A stretch of DNA of 45,121 bases from Acetofilamentum sp. (GTDB lineage: Bacteria; CAIWAD01), in contig DYSB01000005.1 of the NCBI GenBank assembly GCA_020726405.1, positions 1 to 45,121 on the forward strand, written 5' to 3'. Below, piece by piece: positions 4,494 to 35,720 of this stretch. Within the stretch, counting starts at the first letter, position 1. Each line of letters begins with the position of its first letter. Made by a program: the position numbers and the translations under genes. The notes under the pieces were generated by a model, which saw only the letters and a program-made list of their open reading frames with translations, was not told the origin of the DNA and did no database searches.

Positions 4494-6518
4494 TCAGGGC
4501 CGGGGTGGCGCCGCACCCGTCGTCCAACCCACCGCCTCTGGCCGCAGGGGCAGGGCCTGGTTGCCCCGGATGGCGTCCTTGAGCGTCTGGTGCCGGACCG
4601 GGTCGTACCACCACAGGCGGATCAGGTCGCGATAATCGTAGGTGCGGGAGAGCACGCGCCGGGGCATGCCGAACTTGTTCCAGTAGAGCAGGCGCTCGTA
4701 GGGCCCGTACCAGGCGTGTGCCACATAATAGCCGTCCATCAGCCGCTTGTCGATGGCCTGGATCTGTCTCACGCGCTCGGCCTGGTCATAGGTGATGTCG
4801 TAGACCGCGCAGAGGGAGTCGATCACCGGATCCGCCACGCCCGGGTGGTTGCCCGTGTCGGGGCCGTACGCGAACTCGCTGTGCCAGCTGGAACGCGGGT
4901 CCGGGAACAGGCTGCCCGTCCAGGCGCCGTAATAGAGCTGGAACTTGCGGTCGTTGAGCATCTTCACCCGGGTGGAGAAGGTCGTGGGCTTGAGGCTGAG
5001 CTTGATGCCGCCCCGGGCCAGCTGCTCCTGGATCACCGTCAGCAGACGTTCGCTGGCCGGGTTCTCCGGCGTCATCACTTCGAAATCCAGCCGCTCCTTC
5101 TCCCTGTTCATGCGCACGCCATCGGCGTCCAGCCGGTTGTAGCCCGCCGCCTCCAGCAGCCGGATGGCGGTCCGGGGCTCGTGGCGGATCTTCGGATTGT
5201 CGGGATTCTCGTAGATCCCGCCCGGGTAGTAACTGTCGTTGTGCAGGTATTGGTTGTAGAACAGCTTGTCGATCAGGGTCTGGCGGTCCATCAGCAGGGC
5301 GAAGGCGCGCCGCAGGCGCAGGTCATTGAACGGCGCCTCGCGCGTGTTGAAGACGAAGCCCTGCAGGCCGTTGGGCTGGTCGTTGTGCACCTTCTGCTTC
5401 ACCAGCCAGCCCTGCCGGAGTTGTGTCACACGCTCGGGCGTCAGCTCGCGCACCCAGTACTTGGCCTCCGTCACCAGCAGCAGGTCCAACTCGCCCTTCT
5501 TGGTGCGCTCGCGGGCCAGGTTGTCCTCGCCGATGGCCACGAACTTGATCTGGTGGAAGTTCCACTCGCCCCGGCGGCGCGGATTGTCGCGGTCCCAATA
5601 GTCGGCCACCCGGGTCAACGTCAGGGTGTTGCCCTGGCTGACGTCCCGCTCGCGGATCAGGTAGCGGCCTGAGCCCGGCAGCGGGTGGTTCTGCCAGCGG
5701 TCCATGTACTGCTTGCCCGTCAGCCCGCCGATGATGTGCGCGGGATAGATCCGCAGCTCGGTGGCGAACTCGGACATCATGCGCCAGCTGCGCTTGGCCG
5801 TGCGCGTGCGCAGCAGATAGGGACTGAGGACCTCAGGCTCGCTGAACTCGCGGTAAATGATGGCGTCGCTGAGCCGCAGCAGGCCCTCGTCCACTTTCAG
5901 CTTCCACGACGCCGCCACATCCCGCGCCGTGAGCCGCTGCCCGGTCTGCCAACGCGCCGCGGGATTGAGGCGGAACCATAGTTCCTGCCCGCCGTCCTCC
6001 GTGAAAACCACGCGCCAGTGCGTGGCCAGCGCCGGCTGGTAGTCCAGGTCCGTGCTGTTCACGCGCAACAGGGTTTCGTAGCACGCCTCGATCATCATCT
6101 GCTGGAAGGCCGTGTGGGCGTCCTTGCCCTCGCTGCGCAGGGTGGCGGGATACTCGGAGATGCTGATGCGGATGCGTCCGCCCGCCAGGGCCGTGGAGTC
6201 CGTGTCCAGCGGGTAGTCCGTGCGGGTCTGCCAGCCCAGGCTGTCCGCCAGGGCCTCGAAGCCCGCCCCGCCCAGCCAGGCCGGCACCTCGGGCAGGGCT
6301 CCCGCCGGTGTCTCCACAGTCTCGTAGCCCGCCTCGCCCCAGACTTGGCGGGCGTCCACGCCCGCCAGCAGCGGCAGGATCGCCCCGGTGTCGAAGCGTT
6401 CGCCCGGAGCACCACAGCCCGCCAGCAGCAGGCTCAGCCCCAACAGGCTCAGCCCCAGCTGAGGCAGGCGGAGGATCCGGCGCGCGGCCCTGTGATGGAT
6501 GGTCTGGGTGGTCGGCAT
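4494..6518 (-). CDS. Peptide-type ABC substrate-binding lipoprotein (SBP family 5)
   Basis: The protein has 674 residues, with the start at 6518 supported by AGGAGC. An N-terminal stretch ends in the lipobox LLAGC (Cys35), so it is a lipid-anchored periplasmic protein. The body matches the SBP_bac_5 fold of oligopeptide/nickel-binding proteins: a domain reading AARWQTGQRLTARDVAASWK, then DRQTLIDKLFYNQYL and YYPGGIYENPDNPKIRHE, the usual family 5 landmarks. It is longer than typical DppA/OppA (about 540 residues) because of an extra N-terminal segment of about 90 residues. No permease or ATPase gene is adjacent, so it is an orphan binding protein or works with a distant transporter. It lies 56 bp after the patatin gene and 95 bp before the protease gene on the same strand. 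Confidence 0.85.
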   Translation of the reverse strand: MPTTQTIHHRAARRILRLPQLGLSLLGLSLLLAGCGAPGERFDTGAILPLLAGVDARQVWGEAGYETVETPAGALPEVPAWLGGAGFEALADSLGWQTRTDYPLDTDSTALAGGRIRISISEYPATLRSEGKDAHTAFQQMMIEACYETLLRVNSTDLDYQPALATHWRVVFTEDGGQELWFRLNPAARWQTGQRLTARDVAASWKLKVDEGLLRLSDAIIYREFSEPEVLSPYLLRTRTAKRSWRMMSEFATELRIYPAHIIGGLTGKQYMDRWQNHPLPGSGRYLIRERDVSQGNTLTLTRVADYWDRDNPRRRGEWNFHQIKFVAIGEDNLARERTKKGELDLLLVTEAKYWVRELTPERVTQLRQGWLVKQKVHNDQPNGLQGFVFNTREAPFNDLRLRRAFALLMDRQTLIDKLFYNQYLHNDSYYPGGIYENPDNPKIRHEPRTAIRLLEAAGYNRLDADGVRMNREKERLDFEVMTPENPASERLLTVIQEQLARGGIKLSLKPTTFSTRVKMLNDRKFQLYYGAWTGSLFPDPRSSWHSEFAYGPDTGNHPGVADPVIDSLCAVYDITYDQAERVRQIQAIDKRLMDGYYVAHAWYGPYERLLYWNKFGMPRRVLSRTYDYRDLIRLWWYDPVRHQTLKDAIRGNQALPLRPEAVGWTTGAAPPRP

Positions 6519-6574
6519 GCCGTGCTCCTGGTTGTCTATGTCAGGTGGGCTCTCGTCCCGCTGGCCAGCCGGGA

Positions 6575-8845
6575 TCAATCCCAGCCGAAGCGCAGATAGA
6601 TGAAGGCGGGCTCGCCGGGCTGGCTGCCGACAGCCAGCTTGAGCGGTCCCAGATAGGTGCGGGTGGCCAGTTCGAGTCCCAGGCCCAGATCGCTGCGGTC
6701 CTCCGGCTCCAGCAGGCCGCCGCGCGTGTGGCTCACGGCCGCCACGGGCAGCAGGCTGAGGTTTCGTCCCAGCCAGAGGCGCAGGCCCAGCCAGCCTGCC
6801 GCCACTTCCGGCACCCAGAGTTCGCGGAACTCGAAGCCGGGCATTTCCGGCCAGCCGCCAAAGGGGAAAAAGTAGGGCGTCGACAGTTCCCCGCGGAAGC
6901 CGCGCCCGGCCAGTCCGCCCAGTTCCACGGTGAGCAAGCCTGGCCAACGCGGCAGGTTGCCGGCGTCCCGGGCCGCCGTGGAGCGCGCGCCGCCCGCCGC
7001 CCGGAACCAGCCGTCGAAGGAGTGCCAGATCCGGGTATGCAGCCAGCCGCGCGTGAAGGTCCGGCTCCGGCGCCCGATGGGATCCAGCAGGCGCGCCTCG
7101 GCGCCCAGCTCAAAACCGTGGGTTGGGAAATCCAGCGCGTTGCGCGTGTCCACGTCCAGACGCAGGGCCGCCGCATGGGCCCGCTCGCGGGTCACCGTCC
7201 ACGTGCTGTCCGCCAGCTGCGGCCGGGCCTTGGTCCACTCCGTGGCGGCCTGGGCCTCCAGCCGCGCGCCCCGGCGCAACACCAGGCCCGCACCCAGCCC
7301 CAGGTCGGCGCGATTCAATTCGTAGACCGCCAGGCTGCGGTGTCCGCTGCCGCCCACCTCCACGTCCTCGCTGCTGAAGTGGCTGAAGGGATGCAGATAA
7401 AAACCAGAGCTGTGGGAACTGCTGCGCCAGGCTTCCAGGGCCAGGTGCAGATCCGTGCCGAACCGGCCATCCCAGCGAATGCGCGAGCCGGGCCCCAACA
7501 CGCGATCCCAATCCAGCGTGACGCCGAGCCGCACCTGATCGTGCTCCGTGTAGCTGGGGGTCACGTCCAACCAGGCCTGGCCGGGTCCGTCCACTTCCAG
7601 CAGCAGGCCGGCGGCGGGGTGGCGGCCGGGCTTGCAGGGCTCGCCGGGGTTGACCAGGATGATCTGGTAGCCGGCCCGCTGGGCCAGCCCGGATGAGATG
7701 AAGGTGCGCACACGCCGTGAGACGTCGCGCGGGCTGAACAAGTCGCCGCGCTTCAGCCCCAGCAAACGTTCCGCACGCTCCAGACTGATGGTGGAGCGGC
7801 CCTCCACGGAGAGCGAGGCCAGCCAGAGCGTGTCGGGCAGGCTCAGCCGTTCGGGTGGCGAACGGAGGCCCAGCGGCACGCCGCGCTCGGCCAGCAGGGC
7901 CAGCAACCGGGGTTCGGCGGCCCGCATGGCCTCATACCCGCGCAGGATCAGCGAATCCACCGCCTCGAAGTCCATCAACCCGAAGCGTGAGACAGCGGGC
8001 CGCACCACCAGATCCGCCAGTCGACCGGCCTGGGTTTCCTGAGCCAGCGAGAGGATTTGCCGGGACTGCTCGGCCACGGCCACCAGACTGCCCAGCTCGT
8101 CCAGCGGCCGCAGATGAACGGGCAGATCCACGGCGATGATCAGTTCCGCACCCAGCCGCAGGGCCAGATCCGTGGGCAGGTTCTGCACCAGACCGCCGTC
8201 CACCAGCACGCGGCCGTCGATCTCCACCGGCTGGAAGATCGAGGGCATGCTCATGCTGGCCCGCAGGGCCCGGCCGAGGGAACCGTGGTCCAGGTAGACG
8301 GCCTGGCCGCGCTCCAGGTCGGTGGCGGCGCAAGCGAAGGCGCGTGGCAGGCCGAGGAAGTCCTGCTCGCCGTGGGCGCCCTGGGTGAGGTCGCTGAGCA
8401 GCAGCTCCACCTTGGTGCCGTGGAAGATCTGCCCGGGCGGCCGGATCTGGCCGCGCTCCACTTCCAGCCGCAAGCCGTCGGGCCGGTCCAGGAAGCGCGC
8501 GTTGCCGATCAGCCGGTGGTGGGCGGGCTGATCCACGAAACTGCCCAGCCAGTCGATGTGCCGGGCCAGGCTGTCCAGCTCGCGCCCGCTCCAACCCATG
8601 CTCCAGAGGCCACCCACCAGCGCGCCCATGCTGGTGCCGCAGACCAAGTCCACGGGCAGGCCCAGCTCCTCCAGCCGGCGGATCACGCCGATGTGGGCCA
8701 GGCCGCGCGCACCGCCGCCCGCCAACACCAGGGCCACGCGCGGCGCCGCCGCCGAATCCGGTGGCGCCGGGACCGCAGCCGGCGCGCTCCGCAACATGCA
8801 GACAACCAGCAGCAGCACAAGCGCTATGTTAGGCCCCCTGTTCAT
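6575..8845 (-). CDS. Patatin-like phospholipase with POTRA and outer-membrane barrel (type Vd-like)
   Basis: The product has 756 residues. A hydrophobic N-terminus is followed by a patatin domain (about 35-300) with the oxyanion loop LAGGGARG, nucleophile motif GTSMG (Ser72) and catalytic VDGG (Asp216). Residues about 338-400 look like one POTRA repeat (SLSVEGRSTISLERAERLLGL), and the remainder is a beta-rich barrel ending in aromatic-rich IYLRFGWD. This order is that of PlpD-type Vd autotransporters, where the barrel delivers the phospholipase to the surface. The ATG at 8845 gives the clean signal sequence; no good Shine-Dalgarno is visible and the divergent endonuclease gene starts only 17 bp away. 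The binding-lipoprotein gene follows 56 bp downstream. Lipase/phospholipase activity is expected from the intact Ser-Asp dyad. Confidence 0.9.
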   Translation of the reverse strand: MNRGPNIALVLLLVVCMLRSAPAAVPAPPDSAAAPRVALVLAGGGARGLAHIGVIRRLEELGLPVDLVCGTSMGALVGGLWSMGWSGRELDSLARHIDWLGSFVDQPAHHRLIGNARFLDRPDGLRLEVERGQIRPPGQIFHGTKVELLLSDLTQGAHGEQDFLGLPRAFACAATDLERGQAVYLDHGSLGRALRASMSMPSIFQPVEIDGRVLVDGGLVQNLPTDLALRLGAELIIAVDLPVHLRPLDELGSLVAVAEQSRQILSLAQETQAGRLADLVVRPAVSRFGLMDFEAVDSLILRGYEAMRAAEPRLLALLAERGVPLGLRSPPERLSLPDTLWLASLSVEGRSTISLERAERLLGLKRGDLFSPRDVSRRVRTFISSGLAQRAGYQIILVNPGEPCKPGRHPAAGLLLEVDGPGQAWLDVTPSYTEHDQVRLGVTLDWDRVLGPGSRIRWDGRFGTDLHLALEAWRSSSHSSGFYLHPFSHFSSEDVEVGGSGHRSLAVYELNRADLGLGAGLVLRRGARLEAQAATEWTKARPQLADSTWTVTRERAHAAALRLDVDTRNALDFPTHGFELGAEARLLDPIGRRSRTFTRGWLHTRIWHSFDGWFRAAGGARSTAARDAGNLPRWPGLLTVELGGLAGRGFRGELSTPYFFPFGGWPEMPGFEFRELWVPEVAAGWLGLRLWLGRNLSLLPVAAVSHTRGGLLEPEDRSDLGLGLELATRTYLGPLKLAVGSQPGEPAFIYLRFGWD

Positions 8846-10482: not shown

Positions 10483-10522
10483 CCGGGAGTCCTGAGGTTG
10501 TCCCCGGCTTCCGCTCGGCAAT

Positions 10523-10698
10523 CGGACTTGCCCACTTGACGGGCTTCATCGCCCCACCTGACGCTAGCGTCGGGCCACCCGACCGGATTTTTCGGAGCTT
10601 TCTTGCACATACCCCCAGTATGCGCTGTGAAACCTCCGTAAACCGGCCACGACTGGGATGCGAATCCCATCCAAGGTCCAAGCCCGACAGACTCCTAG
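10523..10698 (-). repeat. Dispersed TIR-bearing element, copy 1
   Basis: Read on the minus strand this begins ctaggagtctgtcgggcttgg and continues with ccttggatgggattcgc, matching the element at 35555-35720 along most of its length. The far end (near 10523) retains caagtccga but the terminal inverted repeat is eroded. It also contains a perfect 12-bp palindrome, gacgctagcgtc (10560-10571), absent from copy 2. It overlaps the msrA stop codon and fills the space between the convergent endonuclease and msrA genes. It has no coding potential of its own that I would defend; it looks like a MITE- or REP-like non-autonomous repeat. Confidence 0.75.
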
Positions 10699-35513: not shown

Positions 35514-35554
35514 GGGGAGGTCCTTGCTTGGAGGGCGTCACAAGCCGGCGCCTT

Positions 35555-35720
35555 GCAGTCTGTCGGGCTTGGGCCTTGGATGGGATTCGCGCCCATATCG
35601 AGACCGGTTTTTCGGACGTTTCGCTGAGCATACTGGTGGTCTGTTCAAGAAACTTGCGGAAAATCCGGGCCGATAGGGGCGATGAAGACCGCCAAGCGAC
35701 CAAGTCCGACAGGCTGCTAG
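35555..35720 (+). repeat. Dispersed TIR-bearing element, copy 2
   Basis: About 166 bp bounded by imperfect 16-bp terminal inverted repeats: agtctgtcgggcttgg at the left (from 35557) and ccaagtccgacaggct at the right (to 35715), 14 of 16 matching when folded. Internal blocks ccttggatgggattcgc, catactgg, caagaaa and ggggcgatgaag match copy 1 at 10523-10698 in the opposite orientation. It sits between the divergent CotH and MFS genes and has no convincing coding capacity. Confidence 0.8.

Follow-up and report, generated by a model that had tools for sequence, protein, structure and literature searches.

Positions 1 to 45,121 of contig DYSB01000005.1 of Acetofilamentum sp. (assembly GCA_020726405.1), a stretch that we call the window, contain two copies of one dispersed element of ~160 bp, copy 1 on the minus strand and copy 2 on the plus strand. 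By computation, we found that the element exists in many copies, that it shares its ends and its CTAG flanks with IS1182-family insertion sequences, and that its interior has a conserved, strand-specific structure. The explanation that we favour, with a probability of about 0.68, is that it is a miniature inverted-repeat transposable element (MITE) moved in trans by IS1182 DDE transposases and that its interior of ~125 nt is selected as a single-stranded fold, most likely of RNA.

Conserved fold of the interior

The same architecture of ~158 bp recurs, in differing sequences, in the class of the window and in several classes of proteobacteria. When ends were paired within the fetched loci, 135 elements resulted, 99 of them distinct; 25 with unrelated interiors or insertions were dropped by name, and of the remaining 74, 33 are less than 85% identical to one another. 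Alignment A2 comprises 23 of these representatives, from gamma-, beta-, zeta- and deltaproteobacterial/Desulfobacterota records, and its structure was written by hand from a single element (L201). The ten left out are five from the window's genus (the window's genome, G000, and congener G002), one from congener G001, one from G004, which belongs to another family of the same class, and the divergent L151, L219 and L231. In the predicted fold a terminal stem is followed by helices that are parted by three purine-rich internal loops and end in a 5-bp stem with a loop of 5-6 nt.

Across the 1336 cells of A2, 85.0% are paired, as against 68.8% in shuffled alignments; 35 of 59 pairs are changed on both sides (29.3 shuffled), double changes occupy 219 cells (75.6 shuffled) and the covariation score is 0.452 (0.165 shuffled). 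None of 500 shuffles reached the A2 value for any of these four measures; the shuffles do not keep relatedness, a caveat that the covariation figures carry. When the structure was slid along the alignment, pairing reached at most 52.7% and covariation 0.200, and one slide (+1) gave 37 pairs changed on both sides. The hand-written structure is poorly supported around the middle internal loop, where some pairs form in 5 to 12 of the 23 sequences. Projected onto sequences that had not been used in making it, the A2 structure is 86.7% paired in six elements of other taxa or the other family (37.5-50.0% when slid) and 78.3% paired in ten elements of the window's genus (33.0-56.8% when slid).

A covariance model, R1, that includes no sequence of the window's class finds both copies in the window. 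It matches copy 2 at 35557-35715 on the plus strand with 59.8 bits (E 4.8e-13), as against 31.1 bits on the minus strand; for copy 1 the match is to the core, at 10587-10645 minus, with 16 bits (E 0.027). Complete family members mostly score 48-166 bits. On the better strand, the complete 158-160-bp copies of G000 and G002 that were tested score from 33 to 80 bits, with L124 the lowest and the rest at 48 or more; copies with an accessory hairpin or other insertions score 17 to 36 bits and those of G004 104-115 bits. Where a MITE has nothing but the ends in common with the family, R1 gives about 23-36 bits (44-49 for the very short palindromes L193 and L160), so the ends account for roughly 30 bits and the interior for the rest. 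In Rfam, no family exceeds its gathering score in the window or over the element in 18 loci, and the relaxed matches are hairpin miRNA models far below their cut-offs. A structured RNA was among the candidates named in the original prediction, which had proposed compensatory changes as a check; the double changes, the held-out sequences and the strand asymmetry described below all argue for that candidate as far as the interior is concerned.

One strand is favoured

Departures from pairing were counted at those A2 pairs for which half or more of the sequences are Watson-Crick. The interior has 59 G-T and 13 A-C departures and the terminal repeats have 11 of each (Fisher p 0.005; since the elements are not independent, p-values here are indicative only). 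Shuffling letters within columns leads one to expect 95:54 in the interior, so there is a true strand bias, though a weaker one than the raw ratio implies. In the set aligned with the covariance model the G-T:A-C counts are 116:26 in the interior and 17:10 in the termini, and the excess is found both in the window's genus (29:7) and in other taxa (19:4).

RNA folding points to the same strand. For 40 elements that had been oriented by sequence motifs and not by energy (L151 was turned by hand), this strand is the more stable in all 40 full elements and in 39 of 40 interiors, with means of -53.1 versus -39.5 kcal/mol. In 13 further MITEs or paired ends that bear these repeats, the two strands of the interior are 1.1-9.9 kcal/mol apart. 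When G-U pairs are disallowed the advantage shrinks, to -40.5 versus -36.0 kcal/mol over 33 elements. These comparisons suggest that selection acts on one strand, more likely as RNA than as DNA.

Terminal repeats and the IS1182 link

The element is short, contains no transposase gene and is bounded by terminal inverted repeats. Complete IS1182-family insertion sequences have the same repeats of ~15 bp, AGYCTGTCGGRCTT, and the same CTAG flanks; we found L206 (Pontiella), L273 and L276/L284 (viral contigs), of which L276 and L284 look like one insertion seen twice. The degraded L186 has the same terminal repeat, and all four distinct copies compared (L206, L273, L186 and L276/L284) combine CTAG on both sides with an IS1182 transposase. 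In G004, an IS1182 transposase gene that is cut by the end of contig C161 starts 62 bp after a terminal repeat, in a genome that also holds a 158-bp element. At least 120 stretches in 84,980 species genomes match CTAGSAGYCTGTCGGACTTA exactly, and among the matches listed are records of gamma-, beta-, zeta- and deltaproteobacteria, of Verrucomicrobia and of others; a scan of viral contigs for the element ends returned 19 stretches. CTAG is present on both sides of 58 of 103 distinct paired elements, a figure biased by a locus search that demanded CTAG on one side. For ten of 46 elements, a gene terminates against the downstream side of the element at a distance of one base. From these sequences we infer that the element may be mobilised in trans by IS1182 transposases.

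Other elements share the ends. At four contig ends of the window's genome (C95, C103, C179 and C246; L044, L048, L046 and L047) we found the ends of a longer element that has the same terminal repeat, differs inside and is possibly an autonomous partner; its inner part matched nothing in G001-G004 beyond chance. Betaproteobacterial MITEs of 189-209 bp (L158, L194, two in L196, and L227) have the same ends, an unrelated interior and a second copy of the inverted repeat just inside the ends. Lineage-specific MITEs with these ends also occur in Opitutaceae (115 bp; L191, two in L202, and L236) and Pontiellaceae (101 bp; L160).

Three further candidates for a parent were rejected. On contig C104 of congener G002 (L138) the terminal repeat is joined to an IS5-like end, for which contig C9 (L290) has the matching IS5 gene; the junction looks like an IS5 inserted into an element end. 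The IS1380 gene on C28 of the same congener (L292) lies between two ends of the element family and is read as an insertion into a copy. The loci of the IS4 genes on contig C85 of the window's genome lack matching ends.

The same interior with exchanged ends

In three loci (L335, L246 and L337) the interior is kept while the ends are exchanged. A BLAST search of plasmids with the L201 element matched only the interior of a locus on a plasmid of Pseudomonas sp. MPC6 (85.4% over query 18-140), whose own ends, type 2, are AGGCTGTCCGAGAATA; they are complementary and CTAG-flanked, and the whole element scores 130.8 bits with R1. Of two further interior queries in plasmids, L213 gave no match and L210 gave the same two Pseudomonas plasmids. 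In the Nitrosomonas locus L246 a type-2 copy (6480-6636) and a type-1 copy (6857-7015) stand 220 bp apart, with interiors 60% identical. A viral contig (L337) has a third type of end, AAGCTGTCTGGTTAAA, and scores 107.4 bits with R1. A search for an autonomous element with ends of type 2 or 3 found none, and type-2 ends gave 0 stretches in viral contigs.

Copies in the window

The features of the two copies are as follows.

10518-10694, minus: copy 1, left end decayed (genome search with copy 2; R1 core match)
10679-10693, minus: terminal inverted repeat of copy 1, intact, reading AGTCTGTCGGGCTTG on the minus strand
10518-10530, plus: the other terminal repeat of copy 1, decayed, with a deletion of about 3 bases (sequence)
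10557-10574, no strand: accessory hairpin of a subfamily, enclosing a 12-bp palindrome at 10560-10571
10695-10698, no strand: CTAG flank of copy 1 (sequence)
35552-35555, no strand: left flank CTTG (CTAG-like) of copy 2 (sequence)
35556-35716, plus: copy 2, complete (sequence; R1)
35557-35572, plus: left terminal inverted repeat of copy 2 (sequence)
35573-35699, plus: structured interior of copy 2, predicted to form a long irregular hairpin with purine-rich internal loops
35700-35715, minus: right terminal inverted repeat of copy 2 (sequence)
35717-35720, no strand: right flank CTAG of copy 2 (sequence)

Both copies are present, with terminal repeats as the original prediction had described them, and both lie where coding switches strand: copy 1 between converging endonuclease I and methionine sulfoxide reductase genes, copy 2 between diverging CotH and MFS genes. 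Copy 1 runs on the minus strand from 10693 down to about 10518, where its decayed end reads GCAATCGGACTT and is about three bases short. Beyond its intact right end come a C and then CTAG, the CTA of which supplies the TAG stop codon to the methionine sulfoxide reductase gene, encoded on the minus strand and ending at 10695. Copy 2 proper occupies 35557-35715 (AG...CT), with flanks CTTG|C and G|CTAG.

The perfect 12-bp palindrome reported in copy 1, GACGCTAGCGTC, is real and forms the core of the 18-bp accessory hairpin GACGCNNGCGTC. This hairpin is carried, at one place in the element, by a subfamily that both congeners have, and its loop bases vary; we found it at that position in one more element of the window's genome (L013) and in three of the congener (L122, L131 and L133). 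The segment said to be foldable, GGGATTCGCATCCC, can indeed make a local hairpin, but the better-supported fold is one hairpin across the whole element.

Copy number and distribution

With copy 2 as the query, the window's genome (3,060,239 bases in 281 contigs) yielded 13 complete places (L001-L013, copy 2 included; 76-100% identity to copy 2), copy 1 split in two (81% over query 8-119 and 85% over 127-160) and, by our own count, 21 partial places at contig ends, bearing out the expectation of many genomic copies. Since the assembly breaks in the repeat, the true copy number is higher. The terminal pattern CAAGTCCGACAGNCT occurs 108 times in this genome with up to two mismatches, against 63 for the reversed control, and 22 of the listed places match it exactly.

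A DNA search of 60 genomes gave matches in four: G000, its congeners G001 and G002, and G004. Congener G002 has 81 terminal-repeat matches (control 2) and about 40 elements, and the 158-bp element of G004 has the same ends and a very different interior. A survey with R1, with a cut-off of E 1e-5 and strict filters that missed G001, picked out 7 of 386 genomes (5 of the 332 of good quality): G000, G002, G004 and four from outside the class, two of which, G207 and G233, hold at least seven strong copies apiece. So scattered a distribution is what one would expect of a mobile element. Neither the phage nor the E. coli collection, searched with one query each, gave a match.

In G001, the orthologous CotH/MFS place of copy 2, the one place examined, holds no element: gene order is kept, 208 bases separate the flanking matches as against 377 in the window, and no element appears in the alignment, in intergenic DNA too diverged for a base-level reading of the empty site. 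The corresponding interval of G002 is about 1.6 kb and hence uninformative on presence or absence. A MITE, another candidate of the original prediction, is supported by this place together with the IS1182-type repeats, the CTAG flanks and the copy number.

Elements also lie close together in L124 (C51 of G002). In L128, in L137 and at the right flank of L335 they abut another terminal repeat with a single shared CTAG, as if one copy had inserted beside another.

Weighing the explanations

In the explanation that we favour, IS1182-family DDE transposases would recognise the terminal repeats of ~15 bp and insert the element at CTAG, in trans. The cassette of ~125 nt between the repeats would be transcribed by read-through and would fold as a long irregular hairpin, most probably as RNA rather than as single-stranded DNA. 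The fold may aid spread of the element or its tolerance by the host, for instance by binding a host or transposition factor or by rendering read-through transcripts harmless. Two considerations suggest such a benefit: the cassette stays constant while the repeats swap among at least three types, and conservation among copies in distant hosts must work through the line of descent of active elements rather than through individual insertions. A variant of this idea, which we hold as a tentative and rather doubtful possibility, is a selfish RNA gene, in which a structured RNA of ~125 nt spreads among distant bacteria by wearing the IS1182-type repeats at hand, much as a short interspersed nuclear element (SINE) does, and is itself needed for spread; the RNA might recruit transposase, transposase mRNA or a host factor.

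Several observations weigh against the favoured explanation. The window's genome has no assembled IS1182 transposase with matching ends, its best NF033551 match being a 20.3-bit fragment with a stop; candidates for the helper transposase that the original prediction had looked to are found elsewhere, in IS1182 elements with the same ends. The IS1182 gene of congener G002 has none of these ends in its locus, and the structured interior is absent from the autonomous IS1182 elements examined. Double CTAG is missing from 45 of the 103 elements, only 2 of which have identical 4-base flanks (5.1 expected in shuffles); as CTAG is palindromic and other flanks rarely agree, a target-site duplication remains a candidate feature only. 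R1 misses the single diverged copy of G001 (L149). DNA parameters favour the same strand as RNA parameters, with means of -27.0 versus -21.0 kcal/mol over 33 elements and in 32 of 33 interiors. Finally, 46 elements, judged by crude gene calls, show no orientation bias to neighbouring genes: 21 are in the same and 19 in the opposite orientation to the upstream gene, and 18 and 22 to the downstream gene. This speaks against a standard device of untranslated regions, whose function would predict a bias.

The folding with DNA parameters and the missing orientation bias, together with the fact that the terminal repeats belong to the same hairpin, are what one would expect if the conserved strand acted as single-stranded DNA, its hairpin being extruded on the lagging-strand template or in transposition and recognised there, with RNA uninvolved. 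We consider this unlikely, although not negligibly so: the shared ends are of the IS1182 type, DDE elements of this type act on double-stranded DNA, no HUH/Y1 transposase is associated with the element, and the strand difference is larger with RNA than with DNA parameters. The chances are smaller still that this is an ordinary MITE with a functionless palindromic interior, alike in distant hosts through recent horizontal transfer. Palindromic MITEs are common and a distribution over 7 of 386 genomes would fit such transfer, but the helices are kept by double changes among 33 representatives less than 85% identical, most unrelated MITEs with the same ends fall below the R1 scores of most complete family members, and the strand-asymmetric mismatches are restricted to the interior.

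Two other parentages appear highly improbable. Each terminal repeat has a small hairpin (AGYC...GRCT) and adjoins a tetranucleotide tag, features that recall repetitive extragenic palindromes (REPs), their paired form (REPINs) or bacterial interspersed mosaic elements (BIMEs) moved by a REP-associated tyrosine (Y1) transposase (RAYT). The original prediction had listed a REP/BIME-like element, a candidate that we abandon: of the genome's three Y1 transposase genes, not one lies next to the repeat, and the ends and flanks match IS1182. The TA at the centre of the CTAG flank would suit movement of a Correia/RUP-like element by an IS630/Tc1 transposase that duplicates TA, but the single DDE_3 gene of the genome is not surrounded by these ends and the complete partners found are IS1182 elements, leaving such an origin scarcely credible.

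Comparison with known systems

Small bacterial MITEs are the subject of a review (PMC10969869) and have been described in Thiomargarita (PMC4853749), and several of them, NEMIS (Correia), ERIC, YPAL and bcr1, fold and act at the RNA level (PMC2229807, PMC3733652). The present element resembles these in its size class of 100-200 bp, its mostly intergenic position, its multiple copies and its long RNA-level hairpin, here a predicted one. Each of them is listed, in the accessible parts of those two papers, for one genus or host group; the element described here, in contrast, spans several proteobacterial classes and another class by paired changes, and it has IS1182-type ends and CTAG flanks. QMITE1 and QMITE2 of Coxiella burnetii yield small RNAs (PMC5896051) and likewise link a MITE to RNA, which in our case is predicted. 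QMITE1 differs in its length of 300-400 bp and in that its authors found no orthologue in other genomes, and the accessible part of that paper mentions no structure conserved across hosts for either. A MITE interior kept by paired changes across bacterial classes, or one with exchanged ends, is not described in the accessible parts of these five papers, and the titles and abstract openings retrieved by searches of an open-access library contain no description of the element family. MITEs acting at the RNA level are already known; an interior conserved by paired changes across classes would be new.

IS1182-family insertion sequences share the terminal repeat and the CTAG flanks with the element and differ in being 1.5-1.6 kb long, in encoding a transposase and in lacking the structured interior. 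REP/REPIN sequences with their RAYT are likewise dispersed palindromes with inverted ends; the present element is longer, has DDE-type ends and has no associated Y1 gene. The IS110 bridge RNA and the HEARO/omega RNA are structured RNAs within mobile elements that also encode an enzyme. Like them, the element is a candidate for a structured RNA in mobile DNA, but it carries no gene. MITEs are usually taken to be what deletion leaves of a parent element, and their interior to mean nothing. In this element it is the interior that tells most, with one fold on one strand across distant bacteria and exchanged terminal repeats. The question of whether small mobile repeats carry working RNAs thereby becomes directly testable with many natural compensatory variants, and the termini, in which mismatches are balanced, provide a built-in control for double-stranded recognition.
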